Under the pieces are notes generated by a model. That model saw only the letters and a list, made by a program, of their open reading frames with translations, ran no database searches and was not told where the DNA came from. Positions 40,881 to 62,098 of a DNA stretch of 64,000 bases are shown piece after piece. The translations under genes and the position numbers were made by a program. Source of the DNA: Arthrobacter crystallopoietes (GTDB lineage: Bacteria; Actinomycetota; Actinomycetes; Actinomycetales; Micrococcaceae); assembly GCF_017603825.1 (NCBI RefSeq), contig NZ_CP072014.1, positions 868,001 to 932,000 on the forward strand. Direction: 5' to 3'. Numbering within the stretch: the stretch's first letter is position 1; each line of letters opens with the position of its first letter.

Positions 40881-41207
40881 ATGAGCAACGCTAAAGATGT
40901 CACGGATGCCAGCTTCGACGCTGACGTCCTGAAGTCCGACAAGCCCGTCATCGTCGACTTCTGGGCCGAATGGTGCGGCCCCTGCCGTATGCTGACGCCC
41001 ATTCTGGACGATATTGCAGCGGAACACGCCGGCAAGGTCGAGGTCGTCAAGCTGAATGTGGATGACAACCCTGCGACCGCCGCTCAGTACGGCATTACGT
41101 CCATCCCCGCTGTCTATGTCTTCAAGGACGGCAAGGTGGCCGCCACGTCAATCGGCGCCAAGCCGAAGCAGGTTATCGAGAAGGAATTTGCTGAGTTCCT
41201 CGGCTAG
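40881..41207 (+). CDS. trxA: Thioredoxin
   Basis: 108 residues, standard length. Active site WCGPC with Cys32 and Cys35; cis-Pro in [19 protein letters not shown] ribosome site before the ATG. Electron carrier for ribonucleotide reductase and thiol repair. Stop is 5 nt before the CwlM-like gene. Confidence 0.97.
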
Positions 41208-41212
41208 AAATT

Positions 41213-42400
41213 ATGGATAACGACGCTGCAGACCAGAGTCTGCGCCGTTCGGATACTAGCCGGCGCGTGGTGGCCCTAAGAGAAAGGCTGCTGCGCGCCG
41301 GCATTTCCATGGCGTATCTGGCACCGGATCAGGTTAACGATCCGACGGTTTTCGACGACCATGTTGATGCTGCCGTCCGCACGTTCCAGCAGAACCGTGG
41401 ACTCATGGTGGATGGCGTGGCAGGTCCAGAAACACTAAGGGCGCTGGGCGAAGCACAGTACAACCTGGGCGACAGGCCTATGTTCTGGCAACACGGTATC
41501 GACCACACGCGGGGAGATGATGTATCGGAGCTCCAACGCCAGTTGTCCTATCTCGGGTTTTATTACGGCCACATAGACGGCGAGTTCGGCGAACGTACTC
41601 ATCTCGCCGTGCGGGAACTCCAGCAGAACCTCGGTCTTGAACCTACCGGCGTCGCGGATGCCCCCCTCATCGGAGCGATGGCACGCGTGAACCGCAGCAT
41701 TAGTCCGAGTCATGCCTTCTCGCTCAGGGACTATGAACGGCTGAACCAGGCTTCCGCAGCGCTCAAGGGCCGCGTCGTTTGTTTGACCGCCGGTCATGGA
41801 ACCTCCTTCCAATCTTCCGTAACCGACAAGGCAAGCGGACGCCCTTTGACTGAGAAGCTGGTCGCATCCGATGTGATGCGCCGCGTTGAGAGCATCCTGT
41901 CCGGCCTCGGGGCAGAAGTAACTGTGGTGGCTGCTGGGGACGAGAAGGCTGCGGACAACCGTGTCCAGTTGATTCGTAAGGTGTCTCCTAGTTTGAGCAT
42001 CTCAATCAACTGCGATTCGCTGGATCAACCACTGGCCAATGGTGTCTCTGCCTTTTATTGGGGCAAACCGGAAACAGGAGAAATTCGTTCTCCAATCGGT
42101 CACCGGGCCGCTGAATTAGTCCTGAAGGAAGTTCTTGCCCGGACTACGGCAACCGACCTGGGGATCCACGGACGCAGTTGGGACATCTTGCGACTGACAA
42201 GCATCCCGTCAATCCAACTCGATATCGGTTATCTCAGTAATCCTGACGAAGCCGGCAGACTGGCAGACCCTGTCTTCCGTCAGGTACTGGCTGATGCCAT
42301 CGTTATAGCTATCCAGCGGCTTTACTTGCTGGAAGAGGATGACGAACCGACAGGTACCTTGGCACTCGATGACGTGCGGCGTTTCAACCCTGAGCGTTGA
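41213..42400 (+). CDS. cwlM: CwlM-like N-acetylmuramoyl-L-alanine amidase homologue, probably catalytically altered
   Basis: 395 residues, no signal peptide. Two peptidoglycan-binding-1 domains (about 15-80 and 100-155, e.g. AVRTFQQNRGLMVDGVAGPETLRALG) precede an amidase_3 domain (about 187-380). Zn ligands His195 (AGHG) and Glu214 (LTEKLVAS) are present, but the expected third His (S-I-H-x-N) is Ser264 and the catalytic Glu before GYLSN is Asp337. So catalytic activity is doubtful. In mycobacteria CwlM is cytoplasmic and regulates MurA rather than cutting murein. The trxB-trxA-cwlM order is conserved. Confidence 0.85.
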   Translation: MDNDAADQSLRRSDTSRRVVALRERLLRAGISMAYLAPDQVNDPTVFDDHVDAAVRTFQQNRGLMVDGVAGPETLRALGEAQYNLGDRPMFWQHGIDHTRGDDVSELQRQLSYLGFYYGHIDGEFGERTHLAVRELQQNLGLEPTGVADAPLIGAMARVNRSISPSHAFSLRDYERLNQASAALKGRVVCLTAGHGTSFQSSVTDKASGRPLTEKLVASDVMRRVESILSGLGAEVTVVAAGDEKAADNRVQLIRKVSPSLSISINCDSLDQPLANGVSAFYWGKPETGEIRSPIGHRAAELVLKEVLARTTATDLGIHGRSWDILRLTSIPSIQLDIGYLSNPDEAGRLADPVFRQVLADAIVIAIQRLYLLEEDDEPTGTLALDDVRRFNPER

Positions 42401-42406
42401 ACCAGA

Positions 42407-42420
42407 GTTTCACGTGAATC
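42407..42420 (+). promoter_or_regulatory. parS-like site 1 (GTTTCACGTGAATC)
   Basis: One mismatch to the ParB site GTTTCACGTGAAAC; seven bases after the cwlM stop. Confidence 0.75.
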
Positions 42421-43232
42421 GTTGCCTTGCCAGTTGCGGCCATGGGCCTTTCCCCGGGGACATTGAGTGGGTTTCCAGCATCATGCCGTCGATCCAAACC
42501 TGAGCTCTCGCTTGCCGCTATCGGTTGCCCTCCGCGTCTCTGACTACCGCCAGTAGAGGAGAAGGCTCATCTTGGATGGGATACCGGCGGGGCACAAACC
42601 AAATGCGACACTCCTGACACGCGCGCTGCTTCCACTACTAAGGATGAGTGCTCGCATTATCGGGGCATCCGATCGAAGTTCACCACCCCTAGGGGCACGG
42701 GAAGGCATGCAGCATGTCTGAAATTCGAGCGTTTGATGCGTCCCAATCAGGAGCAGGCCGCGACAGACTGAATGTTCCGCAATCCTCGGCGCTTCAGGGT
42801 AGGGGAAGTGTATTTGAGTCCTGTAGGACTCGTCATAGCCATAACCGTTGCCTCCGACTATTTCCCGCGACAGCTGGCGGCTCCCGGCTCCTGGCTGCTC
42901 CGGCTACACATATCGATCCATCCAAGGCCGATCGTTGAGACGCGGTGGACCCGCCTATCCAGGATCATGCCAGACAACGAGATCCGAAAGAGGTCGATCC
43001 ACCGGCTTCCGAGTAGCTCACGCTGATGGTTGTCAGTATGTTGGTGATCGCGGCTCGCCGCGGGTGGGAAGAGTTTGCTCCCAAGATGCGCGTCGCTGCT
43101 CCAGGTGAGGAAGACACCGACACTGCGCAAGCCGAGATTGTGTTGCTGGTAGCAAGTCTTGTCATCAACGGCTGCCCCGCATCTCGACAAACTGCGAGGA
43201 CCGGAAGTGGCGTATGCCCGCAGTTCCTCGAG

Positions 43233-43246
43233 GTTCCACGTGAAAC
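43233..43246 (+). promoter_or_regulatory. parS-like site 2 (GTTCCACGTGAAAC)
   Basis: One mismatch; the recurrent asymmetric variant. Confidence 0.85.
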
Positions 43247-43720
43247 GGCACTGACCCGCTGAAATCTCATATCATCGACAGGAGGCCTGACATGTGGAAA
43301 TTCCATCGGACTGGTCTAGCGCAGCCGTATCGGCCGTGGATGTTCTTCCCCTGTCCACTCAACACCACATATATATGGTGCAGGCTCCTCACTGAGCGAT
43401 GATGGCCGGCGGTGCCCAGCAACATTGGTGGCCGATACGCCCACCCGTCCAGATCGATTAGCTAGCAGCCTGCAGGACACCTCGCGGCAGCTTCGCTCAG
43501 GTGCAAAATGCCCCTGAACGGGATTCAATTTGAACCGCCCGTCAAGACGCCGACCGTTCTGGATCGCCGGGGTCTCTATTCGCGATAGCCCTTGCAGTAG
43601 CTACCGACCCTGCAGCTAGGAACCCCCGAACGCAAGCTCCAGACGGTTCGATTGTCCTAGCGGTCGTCCTGAGATGGAGGGGACGGTGCCTGCCGGATTT
43701 GACTTCTATAACCTGTCGTG

Positions 43721-43734
43721 GTTTCACGTGGAAC
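43721..43734 (-). promoter_or_regulatory. parS-like site 3 (GTTTCACGTGGAAC)
   Basis: Reverse complement of the asymmetric variant. Confidence 0.85.
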
Positions 43735-44409
43735 AGCTGACTCAATACCATTCGACATCCGGGTCAGTCGTCGACCACACCCATTCGCCTGTCAGAGGAC
43801 GGCTCACGCAAATTGCTGGCCGACTTGGGTCACAGACAGCGCGGCTATCAGCACTGCATGCCCGTATATGGCTGCAAAGCTCTAACGGGAAGGTGTGTTC
43901 CCGCAGAACTCCCGGGATTGCAGGTTCGGGCAGCTCCGGTTTGTGTCCTTGGCTACGGCAATTTCGGTTGTTCAGCGAGACGAACCTGGACCGGTGAACA
44001 ATACCAACCTCGGCTACGTGTTCGCGTCCTGTCGTATTCCCGGATTCTTCTGTTCCGGAGTTGGCCAGAGTGCGGAATCGAGGCGATCCAATAGGGCATT
44101 ACGACCTCAACCACTACTGCGATGTCGTAGACGTTGACCCATCCGCTTGTTTGCTTAGCGGGTGCTACCTCATCCTTCTGGGACGGCCGCACTGTAGCTT
44201 CTGTCGTCCCCTCAGTTCGTTCGCCAAATCCGCGGTTACAGGTGTCTTGATCGTTCCAGGTGCACTTTCAGCTGCCCGAAACTCACATTCACTCGCCACG
44301 CTGCGTTCAAGCGGAATGCCCCGTGCATCTCCACACTGCAACGAACCGGTAGAAGGGCCAGCGTGTTTTGCTGTAAATAGCGAGAGGTCTCTGCTGCTTT
44401 GTTGCCAAA

Positions 44410-44423
44410 GTTCCACGTGAAAC
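44410..44423 (+). promoter_or_regulatory. parS-like site 4 (GTTCCACGTGAAAC)
   Basis: Asymmetric variant, one mismatch. Confidence 0.85.
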
Positions 44424-44939
44424 TGTGTAAGCAGGTGGCCCGCTGATTCTGATCACTCTGCGCTACTCGTATACGCAGCCGTACGAGGTACTTGCACCCG
44501 ACTCTGCTTCGGTGAGCCGCCGCTGCAAGATAGTGCCGGCATGTAGCGTGTTGAGAAAATTTGAATCGGTAGCATTCCGCGTGACAAGTGCCTGTCGCAC
44601 TAGGACCACACCTATAGTGGTTCACTGGCACTGACCCGGTTGAGAGAATCATGCAATGCCGAGTACAGTCGCCTTTCTGTGCTCCCGTCTCCACAACGCA
44701 AATTGACGGCGGTTCCAGAGAAGGAACATAGATTTAGGCCGTGCGTTTGAGGAGCTGCAGCTGCCGATCACCTTGACCTATGCCCGGGGGCGCCAGCTTG
44801 GGATCTTTCAGCTGTGTCCCTGTCTCCAGCTGGACTGCTGGATCTCTGCGTTCTCCGCCATGCCATGTGATGCAATGAGGAGAGTGCGCAGTACGGTCAT
44901 ACATGTGTGTCGCCGCTTGCACCCGGCCATTGCGTACAT

Positions 44940-44953
44940 GTACCACGTGAAAC
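44940..44953 (+). promoter_or_regulatory. parS-like site 5 (GTACCACGTGAAAC)
   Basis: Two mismatches in the left arm. Confidence 0.65.
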
Positions 44954-45290
44954 CATGCTTCGCATGAGAACATTCGTCGAGCGCTTCGGACCAAACGCTT
45001 GCCTGGTTGCTGGGCGCTACAAGAAGTCAGGTCGGAATTTTGCGAATCGGCGCCGTGGAGAGGGACCGCAAGCACAACGTGGCTTGGTCCCTCCATCTAC
45101 ACGGAAAGCAGGCCTCAACTACCTGCCCATACGGGGACTGAGAGTTACACGCTGAAGCATCGCACTATCTGCTCGCCGGCAGCGATGTGATGAACCGGTA
45201 GGACAAAGATTGGGACAGAAGGACACATATAATAAGCGCCAAAGAAGTGCCCCGAGACCAACTACCCAGTCCAACTTGCAGAGACGATGC

Positions 45291-45304
45291 GTTCCACGTG
45301 AAAC
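45291..45304 (+). promoter_or_regulatory. parS-like site 6 (GTTCCACGTGAAAC)
   Basis: Asymmetric variant, one mismatch. Confidence 0.85.
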
Positions 45305-45787
45305 CAGCAGTGCGTTTCCCGTTTCCCCTACACGCGTGCTGGTGCCGGTGGGAAATCACCAGGAGAGGGGCACCATGATGCCAATGACTCGCATACGCCT
45401 CTGGTACGCCAAAATTTATTCCATCGTCGAAAGTCTTGAGCAGCAGTCGGCTACTCCGCTTCATTGCCTTCCTCAGGAAGTTTAGTCGGGACTACTATTC
45501 ACTGGTGCCCCAGCCCCTACCGAGCCGAACACATGCTCCGGCCGCTGCGCTCCACGAGGCTTAGGCCGAATCAGCTGAACTTGCCTTCGCTACGTCAAAC
45601 TACTTGACTGGCTCTTTTCGCAAATTGGTCGGGTTGAGGAGATTCCGAACTTTGTCTTCCGCGTTAGGTCGTCGCAGCCCGTGCGATTGAGGTACCTTCG
45701 GGTTTGGCTATACTGCCGAGATGCTTCATGTGTCTCACTTGTCGGGAGGACGGTGCCCACCGGAAGAGGCACAGCGCGGCCGTGCAC

Positions 45788-45801
45788 GTTTCGCGTGAAT
45801 C
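45788..45801 (+). promoter_or_regulatory. parS-like site 7 (GTTTCGCGTGAATC)
   Basis: Two mismatches, one in the centre; the weakest of the set. Confidence 0.5.
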
Positions 45802-46436
45802 AACACTGCGCCGATAACGGGCGGTTCCGATAATAGACCCTCGTGGCCTAAGTTGAACTCTTCCGAGAATGCTCTGGTCCGATCCCCGTGACGCAGTAAC
45901 GACATTTGACGCGCGAAGACGTACGGCCCAACCTCGGATTCCAACTGGAACCGGACCCAGCAAGCAGCCCATGGATGACGCCACCACGAGCTAGCTGCCG
46001 GTGAGTACTCCCTACTTGGAGAATCCTGGATCCGTCGCGACTGACACCGACTCAAGGACGGCGCGCATCGTATGTTGCGGGGGTAAAGTGCGTTTTGCAA
46101 CTGCCCGCGACGACGGAGTCGCCCGCAGGCTGTTGGATCTTGCCTTCTTCTCCAGCCGGGCAGTCGCGGTGCGGGCACGATACTGGACACGGATGAACCG
46201 GCAGGTAGCTAGGGCTATCGCCCCGGGATCCTGGCGAAAGCGGATAGGATCCATCTCCAACCGGCATTCAAGAGACGGCGGCGATACGGCTGATCGTCTG
46301 TGGGTAGCCTCGATGACCATGAGAGCTCTGGCGGAAACAGTCCACGGGCAACCATATGGGCAGTTTCTATCGGCCGTCAGTGCGCTGCCAGCCCAGGCGC
46401 ACTTCGTCGCATGTCTACTGGATAGACGAACCATCA

Positions 46437-46450
46437 GTTTCACGTGAAAC
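46437..46450. promoter_or_regulatory. parS site 8, perfect palindrome
   Basis: GTTTCACGTGAAAC without mismatch. Confidence 0.95.
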
Positions 46451-46771
46451 GCAGGAGATACATTAGGAGTCCGATTCTATGACGTGGTGCATCTGCTGAA
46501 AAAGCGACCTGTGACAAGTGCGCCGTCCCGCTACGGCTGCGCACCAAGGCGCGGTCGGTAGAGTCGGAGTGCCGCAATAGTTTACAACGCGAGATGCTGA
46601 CACTGAACAAAATTCACCCATCATGGTGTGTTCGTCTACTAGTCCGATAACCAAGATGGATGAGTACTCACGCTGAGAGGATATTGACTAACAGGTGAGC
46701 GATCATCGTGATGACATTGAGATCATAGCCGAGGCGACGCTGTGCTGTAGTTGAGTCGAACTTCCTACTCA

Positions 46772-46785
46772 GTTTCACGTGGAAC
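46772..46785 (-). promoter_or_regulatory. parS-like site 9 (GTTTCACGTGGAAC)
   Basis: Reverse complement of the asymmetric variant. Confidence 0.85.
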
Positions 46786-47471
46786 GGTAGCCCTGCGTTG
46801 GAACCGTGCCAGGATGCAGAGGAGTGGAGACGGTTTGACTTCGCCATGTACCTTCTCACGCCGGGTCTTATTGGGCTTTGATCAAATTACTTCTATAGAA
46901 GCGAAGCATACGGATCCAGCTATGCAGCACTTCGCCCTGCCGGCGTCGGTGAAGACCGCAACGGTTGGTCGTACCCGCCAACCACGGGCGCTTTCATTGA
47001 CTACGTATGCGTGCTCACCAGAATCAAGCTTATATGCCCAAGGGATTACGGTCCCAGCGACGTCACCGAAGTGGTACCGCTTCCGGCCGGTACGTTCATC
47101 GGCTCCACCGGTCCCCGTGGACTGCACTACTTCAATAAGACCGTCGACGTGGCCATGGCCGGATAGGGCGACAAGATTCATCGCACGTTGTTGGCGGACG
47201 GCGCCGAGCATGTGATTGACAGCTAGTGCGATATCCCGTTCCATAGGGACCGACAGAGGGTTCGCCATCCAAAAACGTGATGACACTGCTGCTTCGGGGG
47301 CGCAAGTTCGACGGGGGGAATTTCGCGCTTTCGGTCATCCTCACAGCGTCGGTATCTCACATGGCAGATTCAGTCTCCTCCGACAAGGAGCTGTATCCCT
47401 CTGTCGCGCCGCCAGGCCAGATGAGCGCTGACGCAGTGAAGATGGCTTCTTCGTCGAGGGTTCGTTGCCAT

Positions 47472-47485
47472 GTTCCACGTGAAAC
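47472..47485 (+). promoter_or_regulatory. parS-like site 10 (GTTCCACGTGAAAC)
   Basis: Asymmetric variant, about 140 bp past the parB stop. Confidence 0.85.
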
Positions 47486-47621
47486 CAAAAGTCCGGCAAG
47501 ACCGCCCGAGAGTAGCCGGCCGACCTTCTCCGTCTTCCGGAAAACAGTAGTCACACACGCGGAAAGGGCGGGAACCGCTTCACTGCGGAACCTACCCTCC
47601 CATGCATCTCTTCGTTCTAGG

Positions 47622-48983
47622 CTATCCGTCGTTATTTGGACTCAGGACGGTCATGATTCTGTTCAAATCATCAACACTCGCGAACTCAATACTGACCCGC
47701 CCCTTCTTTGCGCCCAAGGTAATCTTCACACTTGTATCGAGCCGATCAGAAAGCGAGGTGGCAAGGTAGTCCAATCGCTCATGGCGTGCGCCAGCTCGAG
47801 GCTTTGCATCCCTCTTCGGCCTACGAAGTCCATCGCTAAGTGAGACAATCTCCTCGGTTGCCCGGACGGACAATCCTTCAGCTACAATCCGTTGAGCTAG
47901 CTTCTCCATTTCCGCGGGATCTGCAAGGCCGAGCAGGGCCCGGGCGTGCCCCGCCGATAAGACACCCGCTGCGACACGACGCTGTACCAATGGTGGCAAC
48001 TTCATGAGCCGGATCATGTTGCTGACTTGGGGCCGCGAGCGACCAATGCGATCAGCCAGCTCGTCGTGCGTACACCCGAAATCTTCCAGTAATTGTTGAT
48101 ACGCAGCCGCTTCCTCAAGCGGATTCAGTTGACTGCGGTGGAGGTTTTCCAGGAGCGCATCCCGGAGTAGATCGTCATCGGTTGTCGAACGAATAATTGC
48201 CGGAATGGTCTCCATTCCGGCTTCTTGAGAGGCACGCCAGCGCCTCTCGCCCATGACCAGCTCATACTTATACTCGCCACTCTCACCCGATGGTCGAACA
48301 ACGATGGGCTGCAAGATGCCGATCTCACGGACCGAGTGTACTAATTCCGCCATGTCTTCTTCATCGAAGACCGTCCGCGGCTGCTTCCGGTTAGGGTGGA
48401 TAGACAGGATGGGAACTTCAGCGAACGTCGTCCCTGGCACCTCTACCAGAGTTTCACGGGAAACATCCTCGTCGGCTCCCCGGGCAGCCGGCAGTTCGCC
48501 AGATTCCACCATCTCCTGTTCAGTTACTTCCGGCTCATCAGCTGCTGCTGGTGTTACGGAAGACTCAGCCGCCGTTACCGCCCTTGCCTTAGGTTCCACG
48601 GGAGCAACCACTGGCTTATTGTTCTCATCAGCTGTGGAGTCCGGGCCCGTCTCAGTCTCCGCGTCCGCACTATCTGTGTCCGGAGACGGTTTTGGCAAAG
48701 CCTTCTTCATAGGCTTGCGTGCAGACGGGGAGTTTTTGCGGGGTCCCCGAAGGACCTCGGCGACCTGGGCTGCTGAAGAGGCCCCGCCTCTTTCCGCGGG
48801 GGTATTCAGGAATGGCGCGTTGTCTTCGTCGCGACGGGAAGCTGCCGGGAAAAAAACGTCGACTGGACGACCACGGCGGGCAGCTGCCGGACTGGGCTCG
48901 GTATTCTTCTCTTCTGTGGCTACGGGTGAATTCGGAATCAACGCACCCAGGCCCCTACCCAAACCGCGGCGTTTCTCACTCAT
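47622..48983 (-). CDS. parB: Chromosome partitioning protein ParB
   Basis: 453 residues from the ATG at 48983 ([25 protein letters not shown] upstream). A long Ala/Pro/Asp-rich N-terminal linker of about 180 residues precedes the CTP-binding ParB core ([80 protein letters not shown]), the HTH ([29 protein letters not shown]) and a C-terminal dimer domain ([24 protein letters not shown]). It loads and slides on DNA from parS. The linker includes VSRET, encoded by a parS-like sequence. Follows parA with 77 bp between them. Confidence 0.97.
48451..48464 (-). promoter_or_regulatory. parS-like site 11 inside parB (GTTTCACGGGAAAC)
   Basis: One central mismatch; on the minus strand it encodes VSRET of the ParB linker. 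Confidence 0.6.
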
Positions 48984-49060
48984 CAAGGGATCCTTCCTGA
49001 ATGCACGCAAATACGCGCATTTTTATGACTAGGAGCTAAGTCTACCGTTGAGAGTTGGTG

Positions 49061-50041
49061 TTACTTGGATTGCCGCCCGCGCTCGGCAATTTCTGCTGCT
49101 GCCTCCTGATAGGACAGAGCACCGCTAGAGGATGCATCATAAGTAATGACTGTCTGCTGATAACTCGGCGCCTCGGAAATACGTACGGACCGAGGTATAA
49201 CAGCGCCCAGAACCTGATCCGGGAAGTGCTGACGTACCTCCGCGGCAACCTGCGCAGCCAAGTTTGTTCGACCGTCGTACATGGTCAGGAGAATCGTTGA
49301 AACAACCAGGTCGCCGTTGAGGTGCTTCTGAATCATCTCGATGTTGCTGAGGAGTTGGCTGAGCCCCTCCAAGGCGTAATATTCACATTGGATAGGAATC
49401 AACACTTCTTGCGCGGCTACGAAAGCGTTGACGGTGAGCAGCCCCAGACTCGGCGGGCAGTCGACGAAGACGTAGTCCAACCGTTCCTGTCCCGCGGCTT
49501 CCCGTTCCTTCGCGTACACGTCTATGGCGCGCCGAAGTCTCTGTTCCCTGGCGACCAGTGAAACGAGTTCTATCTCGGCGCCGGCCAAATGAATAGTAGC
49601 CGGTGCAACGATGAGGTTTTTGATGTCCGGGCAGGGAGCCAGTACGTCAGCCAGCGGCAGATCGTTGATGAGGACATCATAGATGCTGTCCACGTCCGCG
49701 TGATGCTCGACGCCGAGAGCAGTCGAGGCGTTACCCTGCGGATCGATGTCCACCACCAGAACGTTCAGCCCAGCGGCGGCCAGGGCAGCGGCGATGTTAA
49801 CCGTCGTCGTTGTCTTACCGACGCCACCTTTTTGGTTGCTTACTGTAAGAATCCGCGTTTCGCTGGGCCTCGGCAGGTCGCGTCCCTGCAACCTTTCGCG
49901 CCGCCGGTTCTCGCTGGCAAGCTCACGTGCCAGCGGTGTGCTCTCATCGATTGAATCCATGACGCTGGGAACTGCCGACTCGACCTTCATTTCAGTGCCA
50001 CCGGTAGCCGATGTTTCACGTGAAACCTCGATGTTAGTCAT
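49061..50041 (-). CDS. parA: Chromosome partitioning ATPase ParA
   Basis: 326 residues. Deviant Walker A KGGVGKTT at 71-78 after ILTVSNQ, then NIAAALAAAGLNVLVVDIDPQGNAS and the FVDCPPSLGLLTVNAFVAAQEVLIPIQCEYYALEGLSQL segment. ParA makes the nucleoid-bound gradient that moves ParB-parS complexes. The N terminus MTNIEVSRETSATGG is encoded across a perfect parS. Confidence 0.97.
   Translation of the reverse strand: MTNIEVSRETSATGGTEMKVESAVPSVMDSIDESTPLARELASENRRRERLQGRDLPRPSETRILTVSNQKGGVGKTTTTVNIAAALAAAGLNVLVVDIDPQGNASTALGVEHHADVDSIYDVLINDLPLADVLAPCPDIKNLIVAPATIHLAGAEIELVSLVAREQRLRRAIDVYAKEREAAGQERLDYVFVDCPPSLGLLTVNAFVAAQEVLIPIQCEYYALEGLSQLLSNIEMIQKHLNGDLVVSTILLTMYDGRTNLAAQVAAEVRQHFPDQVLGAVIPRSVRISEAPSYQQTVITYDASSSGALSYQEAAAEIAERGRQSK
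50013..50026. promoter_or_regulatory. parS site 12, perfect, inside parA
   Basis: GTTTCACGTGAAAC; read on the minus strand it encodes VSRET at residues 6-10 of ParA. Confidence 0.95.

Positions 50042-59962: not shown

Positions 59963-62098
<2,136 letters not shown>

Follow-up and report, generated by a model that had tools for sequence, protein, structure and literature searches.

What occupies more than five kilobases of chromosome, directly beside parB, where no gene can be recognized? The question is raised by positions 42401-47621 of a 64,000-nucleotide stretch of Arthrobacter crystallopoietes DNA (contig NZ_CP072014.1, positions 868,001 to 932,000; the window hereafter), from a genome that is a single contig of 4.38 Mb. 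An initial annotation, made from the letters alone, had read this interval as a long spacer, devoid of genes, whose array of parS-like sites makes it look like a centromere. Our sequence analysis supports that proposal and finds the array kept in relatives. In ParABS systems, ParB is known to load at parS and to spread, engaging both ParA and SMC. We consider it probable that the spacer is the ParABS centromere of the chromosome, in which DNA neutral in sequence and free of genes serves as a platform for ParB.

The array claimed by the initial annotation, ten spaced parS-like 14-mers directly beside parB, was recovered in full. Ten matches with 0-2 mismatches to the palindrome GTTTCACGTGAAAC lie in the spacer, whereas 0.15 would be expected from whole-window shuffles and 0.007 from shuffles of the spacer itself. 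These sites and two others inside the par genes are listed here (no strand is assigned to parS sites).

42407..42420, parS site 1, GTTTCACGTGAATC, 1 mismatch
43233..43246, parS site 2, GTTCCACGTGAAAC, 1 mismatch
43721..43734, parS site 3, GTTTCACGTGGAAC, 1 mismatch
44410..44423, parS site 4, GTTCCACGTGAAAC, 1 mismatch
44940..44953, parS site 5, GTACCACGTGAAAC, 2 mismatches
45291..45304, parS site 6, GTTCCACGTGAAAC, 1 mismatch
45788..45801, parS-like site 7, GTTTCGCGTGAATC, 2 mismatches
46437..46450, parS site 8, perfect GTTTCACGTGAAAC
46772..46785, parS site 9, GTTTCACGTGGAAC, 1 mismatch
47472..47485, parS site 10, GTTCCACGTGAAAC, 1 mismatch
48451..48464, parS-like site inside parB, GTTTCACGGGAAAC, 1 mismatch
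50013..50026, perfect parS inside the 5' part of parA (motif match)

A genome-wide search at up to two mismatches returned these twelve sites and four scattered 2-mismatch matches. A reversed-pattern control gave 7 matches genome-wide, and the scattered matches are at or below that control, so that all parS-like sites above background lie in the spacer or in parA and parB. Many relatives also carry a site at the same distance from the parB stop codon as that at 48451 (~842 bp before it), and many have one ~2.3-2.6 kb before the stop, comparable to that at 50013. The gaps between the ten spacer sites measure 335-826 bp (coefficient of variation 0.28), a more even spacing than uniform placement would give (p=0.0005). 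Across 53 spacers, 19 were evenly spaced at p<0.05 and one was clustered at p>0.95, these rows being phylogenetically related; spacer length and parS number were weakly correlated (Spearman 0.37). At position 4 of the motif, C is found in 75% of the spacer sites of the window's genus and T in 90% of those elsewhere; the genus has shifted as a whole to the asymmetric variant GTTCCACGTGAAAC.

The sites persist in DNA that otherwise changes quickly. In pairwise comparisons of the four closest genomes, coding identity was 91.7-95.2% and identity at 4-fold sites 76-86%, versus 47-70% in the spacer, with shuffled controls for the spacer alignments at ~41%. For the closest relatives, Arthrobacter sp. 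SF27 (L006) and VKM Ac-2550 (L007), the respective values were.952,.859 and.70; 10 of their 13 parS sites matched exactly and one more was parS-like, versus 2.3% of all 14-mers matching exactly, and the 40-nt flanks of the sites matched at ordinary spacer levels. Between the window and L086 (spacer identity.56), 8 of the 10 aligned sites were still parS-like. The pair L105/L106, from an independent genus, has a spacer identity of.578 and kept 6 of 6 sites exact versus 1.7%; its 4-fold value of 0.959, higher than the coding identity, is unreliable, as the wrong strand was called for some genes there. Exact conservation was also seen in L009/L011 (7/7 versus 4%), L017/L132 (5/5 versus 13%) and L060/L083 (3/5 versus 0.4%). 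All close pairs tested kept their sites above background; pairs inside one clade are not mutually independent, and alignments become rough where identity approaches 50%. Purifying selection on parS relative to the surrounding DNA is thus apparent, and this conservation means that the sites matter.

The initial annotation had also suggested a check of whether length is kept in relatives while sequence drifts. The outcome was mostly positive: among the closest genomes the spacers remain at 5.2-5.8 kb with 664-2088 gap columns between them; between genera length varies. Control intergenic stretches served as weak neutral clocks: L143 shows 90-94% conservation and L149 91-94% over the greater part of its length, and both may be missed genes, while L144 yielded no usable syntenic intergenic match. 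The control stretch at L143:3981-5267, 1.3 kb without a called gene and 90-94% conserved in three relatives, is perhaps a missed gene or RNA.

To place the spacer among relatives, 80 named parB loci and 47 parB regions from same-genus and same-family genomes were collected, and coding scores were computed for the DNA that follows parB. With a spacer defined as at least 900 bp holding at least 3 parS, 62 of 84 rows qualified within one Micrococcaceae clade (support 97) and 0 of 20 outside it, on a quick ParB tree. Where rows outside the clade are long, the measurement runs through genes up to trxA, and at most one parS is present. The three closest relatives have spacers of 5.2-5.8 kb with 10-13 parS, and most members of the window's genus have 2.7-5.8 kb with 9-17 parS, A. 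hankyongi and A. mobilis being shorter. Individual lengths within the genus were 5221 (the window), 5499, 5481, 5805, 5142 and 4558 bp. Spacers measured 1.0-3.8 kb in groups g31, g5, g25, g27 and g28, 4.0-6.5 kb in groups g7, g9 and g19, and 3.5-9.2 kb, with few sites, in the Glutamicibacter and Paeniglutamicibacter types. In six loci of the latter types (L046, L050, L060, L064, L083 and L112), parB is followed by 5-9 kb that are mostly free of genes and hold only 3-6 parS, frequently paired closely. In most Intrasporangiaceae only 18-208 bp follow parB.

No gene was recognized in the spacer by any measure. Codon usage trained on the neighbouring genes gave every spacer open reading frame (ORF) a coding score near or below zero, none above 0.5, versus 24-52 for the genuine genes alongside, among them rsmG, parA, parB and the amidase gene at 24 to 48 and trxA at 31. 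Period-3 power was at random level (0.1-3.2 per 300 bp, versus a gene median of 13), and the longest ORF, 154 aa, falls short of the shuffle average of 173 aa. Rfam and tRNA (ARAGORN) scans of the spacer gave no match, nor did Pfam in all six frames, and PADLOC, run on two of the six frames, found no defence genes. The absence of protein-like ORFs stated in the initial annotation is therefore confirmed, and the conserved genes or RNAs that it named as grounds for refutation were not found by the Pfam, Rfam and tRNA scans or in the alignments. Apart from parS, the end pieces and a gyrB relic, the spacers of close relatives share only short, weak aligned blocks. No terminator was detected at either spacer end; the one terminator-like site is internal, fewer than expected by chance. 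Over 20 spacers, promoter-like motifs were mildly depleted (25 versus 37.7 expected, z -2.1).

The spacer and its neighbours are as follows.

40881..41207, plus strand, thioredoxin gene (trxA), which bounds the spacer in genera without the amidase gene at this locus
41213..42400, plus strand, N-acetylmuramoyl-L-alanine amidase gene, converging on parB
42401..47621, no strand, gene-free spacer flanked by the amidase gene and parB, which converge on it, with homologous gene-free spacers in relatives
47622..49010, minus strand, parB (domain matches to ParB_N, HTH_ParB and ParB_C)
49061..50041, minus strand, parA (domain match to AAA_31)

The locus order is trxA, amidase, spacer, parB, parA and rsmG, with dnaA/dnaN placed beyond rsmG by DnaA boxes and gene order, ~8-13 kb from the spacer. 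The locus accordingly combines palindromic GTTTCACGTGAAAC-type sites near oriC with parA and a parB that encodes ParB_N and HTH domains. Because the amidase gene and parB converge on it, the spacer is not a long promoter region. In 400 kb sampled from the same genome, the longest uncalled intergenic run elsewhere was 1287 bp (median 97 bp), and that run is itself perhaps a missed gene, being 90-94% conserved in relatives, which makes 5.2 kb a strong outlier. The G+C content of the spacer is 57.0%. The initial annotation had presented GC-poorness as a special trait; the adjacent genes are also at ~57%, so that low G+C is regional and was discarded as a defining feature. ParB has a long N-terminal part, its ParB_N domain beginning at residue 195; in several other genera ParB has ~340-400 aa.

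A single spacer piece has a match elsewhere in the genome, a decayed fragment of the N-terminal region of gyrB.

47044..47358, plus strand, decayed gyrB fragment, 68% identical to window positions 60139-60450

It lies at the same place in four genomes, with identities to gyrB of 68% in the window, 69% in L086, 89% in L007 (to its own gyrB) and 95% in L006. In the first three, no codon phase holds an excess of the differences, which is what DNA free of constraint would show. The L006 piece (L006:11543-12025, minus strand) is nearly intact, and its six derived differences all share a single codon phase; it was therefore probably copied recently from, or converted by, a functional gyrB. The decayed copies of the window and L007 show a net loss of G+C, which would account for the lowered G+C without selection.

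How, then, is the spacer best explained? Several observations weigh against the platform reading. Kocuria, Zhihengliuella, Micrococcus, Citricoccus and group g26 lack the spacer (<0.5 kb); between genera its length ranges over 1.0-9.2 kb and the bp per site from 193 to 1534; Glutamicibacter-type spacers have few, often paired sites that are not evenly spaced and are partly clustered; the window's own spacer has 6 promoter-like matches versus 1.7-2.5 expected; the gyrB piece shows that stray DNA does settle here; and ParB bypasses roadblocks in vitro (PMC9242446). Site spacing, which the initial annotation had suggested comparing in relatives, is even in the window but not universally so, the Glutamicibacter types being an exception and spacing varying between genera. 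Much of this would suit an explanation in which the parS sites are functional and the spacer is passive filler: a promoter-free convergent parB-trxA junction would gather decaying stray DNA, such as the gyrB fragment found in four relatives, and length would persist since deletions tend to remove a parS. The wide variation between genera and the Glutamicibacter-type spacers of 5-9 kb with only 3-6 sites speak for it. We nevertheless hold it to be unlikely, as close relatives keep 5.2-5.8 kb despite their many gap columns, no other sampled intergenic run in the genome exceeds 1.3 kb, many species space their sites more evenly than random placement would, and the spacer recurs over most of a family.

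The other explanations fare worse. Conserved genes, small proteins or a non-coding RNA concealed in the spacer might be suggested by its length alone, by 14 ORFs of at least 100 aa versus 7.4 in shuffles and by the six promoter-like matches, but the coding scores, period-3 signal, ORF shuffles, six-frame Pfam, Rfam and ARAGORN led us to reject hidden genes and RNAs, and with only short weak blocks aligning between close relatives besides parS, ends and relic, the idea is highly improbable. A strain-specific, recently decayed gene cluster with incidental parS would explain the gyrB relic; it is, however, just as hard to credit, given that nothing but that piece matches elsewhere in the genome, that parS are kept in all close pairs, and that homologous gene-free spacers occur in many genera, the family-wide occurrence already contradicting it. 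A pure pseudogene graveyard was dismissed on the same single piece. Proximity to dnaA/dnaN could mean that the spacer belongs to the replication origin and is no centromere, but DnaA boxes cluster at 53.0-55.8 kb and none occurs in 42401-47621, even with one mismatch; origin function was discarded on this ground, and its probability is close to negligible.

We thus return to the centromere in a gene-free platform as the probable explanation. The comparisons indicate that the sites are constrained, that genes and RNAs, and conserved elements other than parS and the decayed relic, are lacking, that the remaining DNA drifts, and that the arrangement occurs family-wide. By analogy with established ParABS biology, ParB would load and slide at this locus, and ParA and SMC would act on it. 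In the mechanism that we propose, the roughly ten spacer sites and the two inside parB and parA would load ParB, which would spread over the gene-free DNA, gather the origin region for ParA-driven segregation and load SMC. Selection would preserve the parS sites and leave the DNA between them free to change in sequence, while keeping it, over some kilobases of the convergent junction of parB with amidase/trxA, as a platform without genes and poor in promoters. Least certain is that length and emptiness are themselves selected, on the ground that proteins bound there would block ParB. In Escherichia coli carrying the F plasmid centromere, chromatin immunoprecipitation sequencing showed dips in ParB binding at promoters that persist when transcription is blocked, one of which was gone after the promoter locus was replaced; the dips are due to promoter-bound proteins and not to active transcription (PMC6238139). 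In Caulobacter, head-on transcription hinders SMC (PMC5583512). Because of the F plasmid results and the bypass of roadblocks in vitro, the platform is better described as free of promoters and bound proteins than as free of transcription. A more far-reaching version is tentative: a 'regional centromere', in which what selection would maintain in a multi-kilobase block is its size, its emptiness and the spacing of its parS, not its sequence, the block outpacing synonymous sites in turnover and being refilled by ectopic copies such as the gyrB piece, with ParB-loading geometry kept family-wide.

Clusters of parS are usually studied among genes, where ParB spreading is hard to separate from transcription and other bound proteins. 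Bacteria usually tend to lose multi-kilobase unconstrained DNA, and the spacer is a rare case of its persistence. Here a natural gene-free array differs between dozens of species in its length (1-9 kb), its number of sites (3-17) and their spacing, and some genera lack it. Comparing them is a ready way to ask what, apart from parS, a bacterial centromere requires.

Among known systems, Bacillus subtilis and Streptomyces share the 14-16 bp motif and the protein family with the window, but their parS are dispersed over tens to hundreds of kilobases, in and between genes. Plasmid iteron centromeres such as F sopC have several ParB sites in the non-coding DNA next to the par genes, arranged as short head-to-tail repeats. 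The (here predicted) ParB sites share that setting, but stand 335-826 bp apart in unrelated DNA and are not tandem iterons. One locus, L092, with 17 parS in its spacer, carries a local tandem array ~4018-4365 bp after the parB stop, several sites being 35 bp apart; it resembles iteron centromeres and is an exception among the spacers. Myxococcus xanthus has a dense few-kilobase array near parAB whose parS consensus is bound by ParB; there, 22 parS in 3 kb are packed much more densely and lie ~4 kb upstream of parA (PMC3899335). Corynebacterium glutamicum, also an actinobacterium, likewise has ten oriC-proximal parS, nine of them intergenic, with ParB and SMC loading demonstrated, but its sites spread over 35 kb and not within one gene-free multi-kilobase spacer (PMC7083940). 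Our literature search, which left most subscription papers, including the Livny 2007 parS survey, outside its reach, returned nothing on parS in Arthrobacter or its relatives. Clusters of parS are thus already known from actinobacteria and Myxococcus; what we rate as new is the setting of this probable ParABS centromere, a spacer that is gene-free, neutral in sequence and preserved in length among close relatives.

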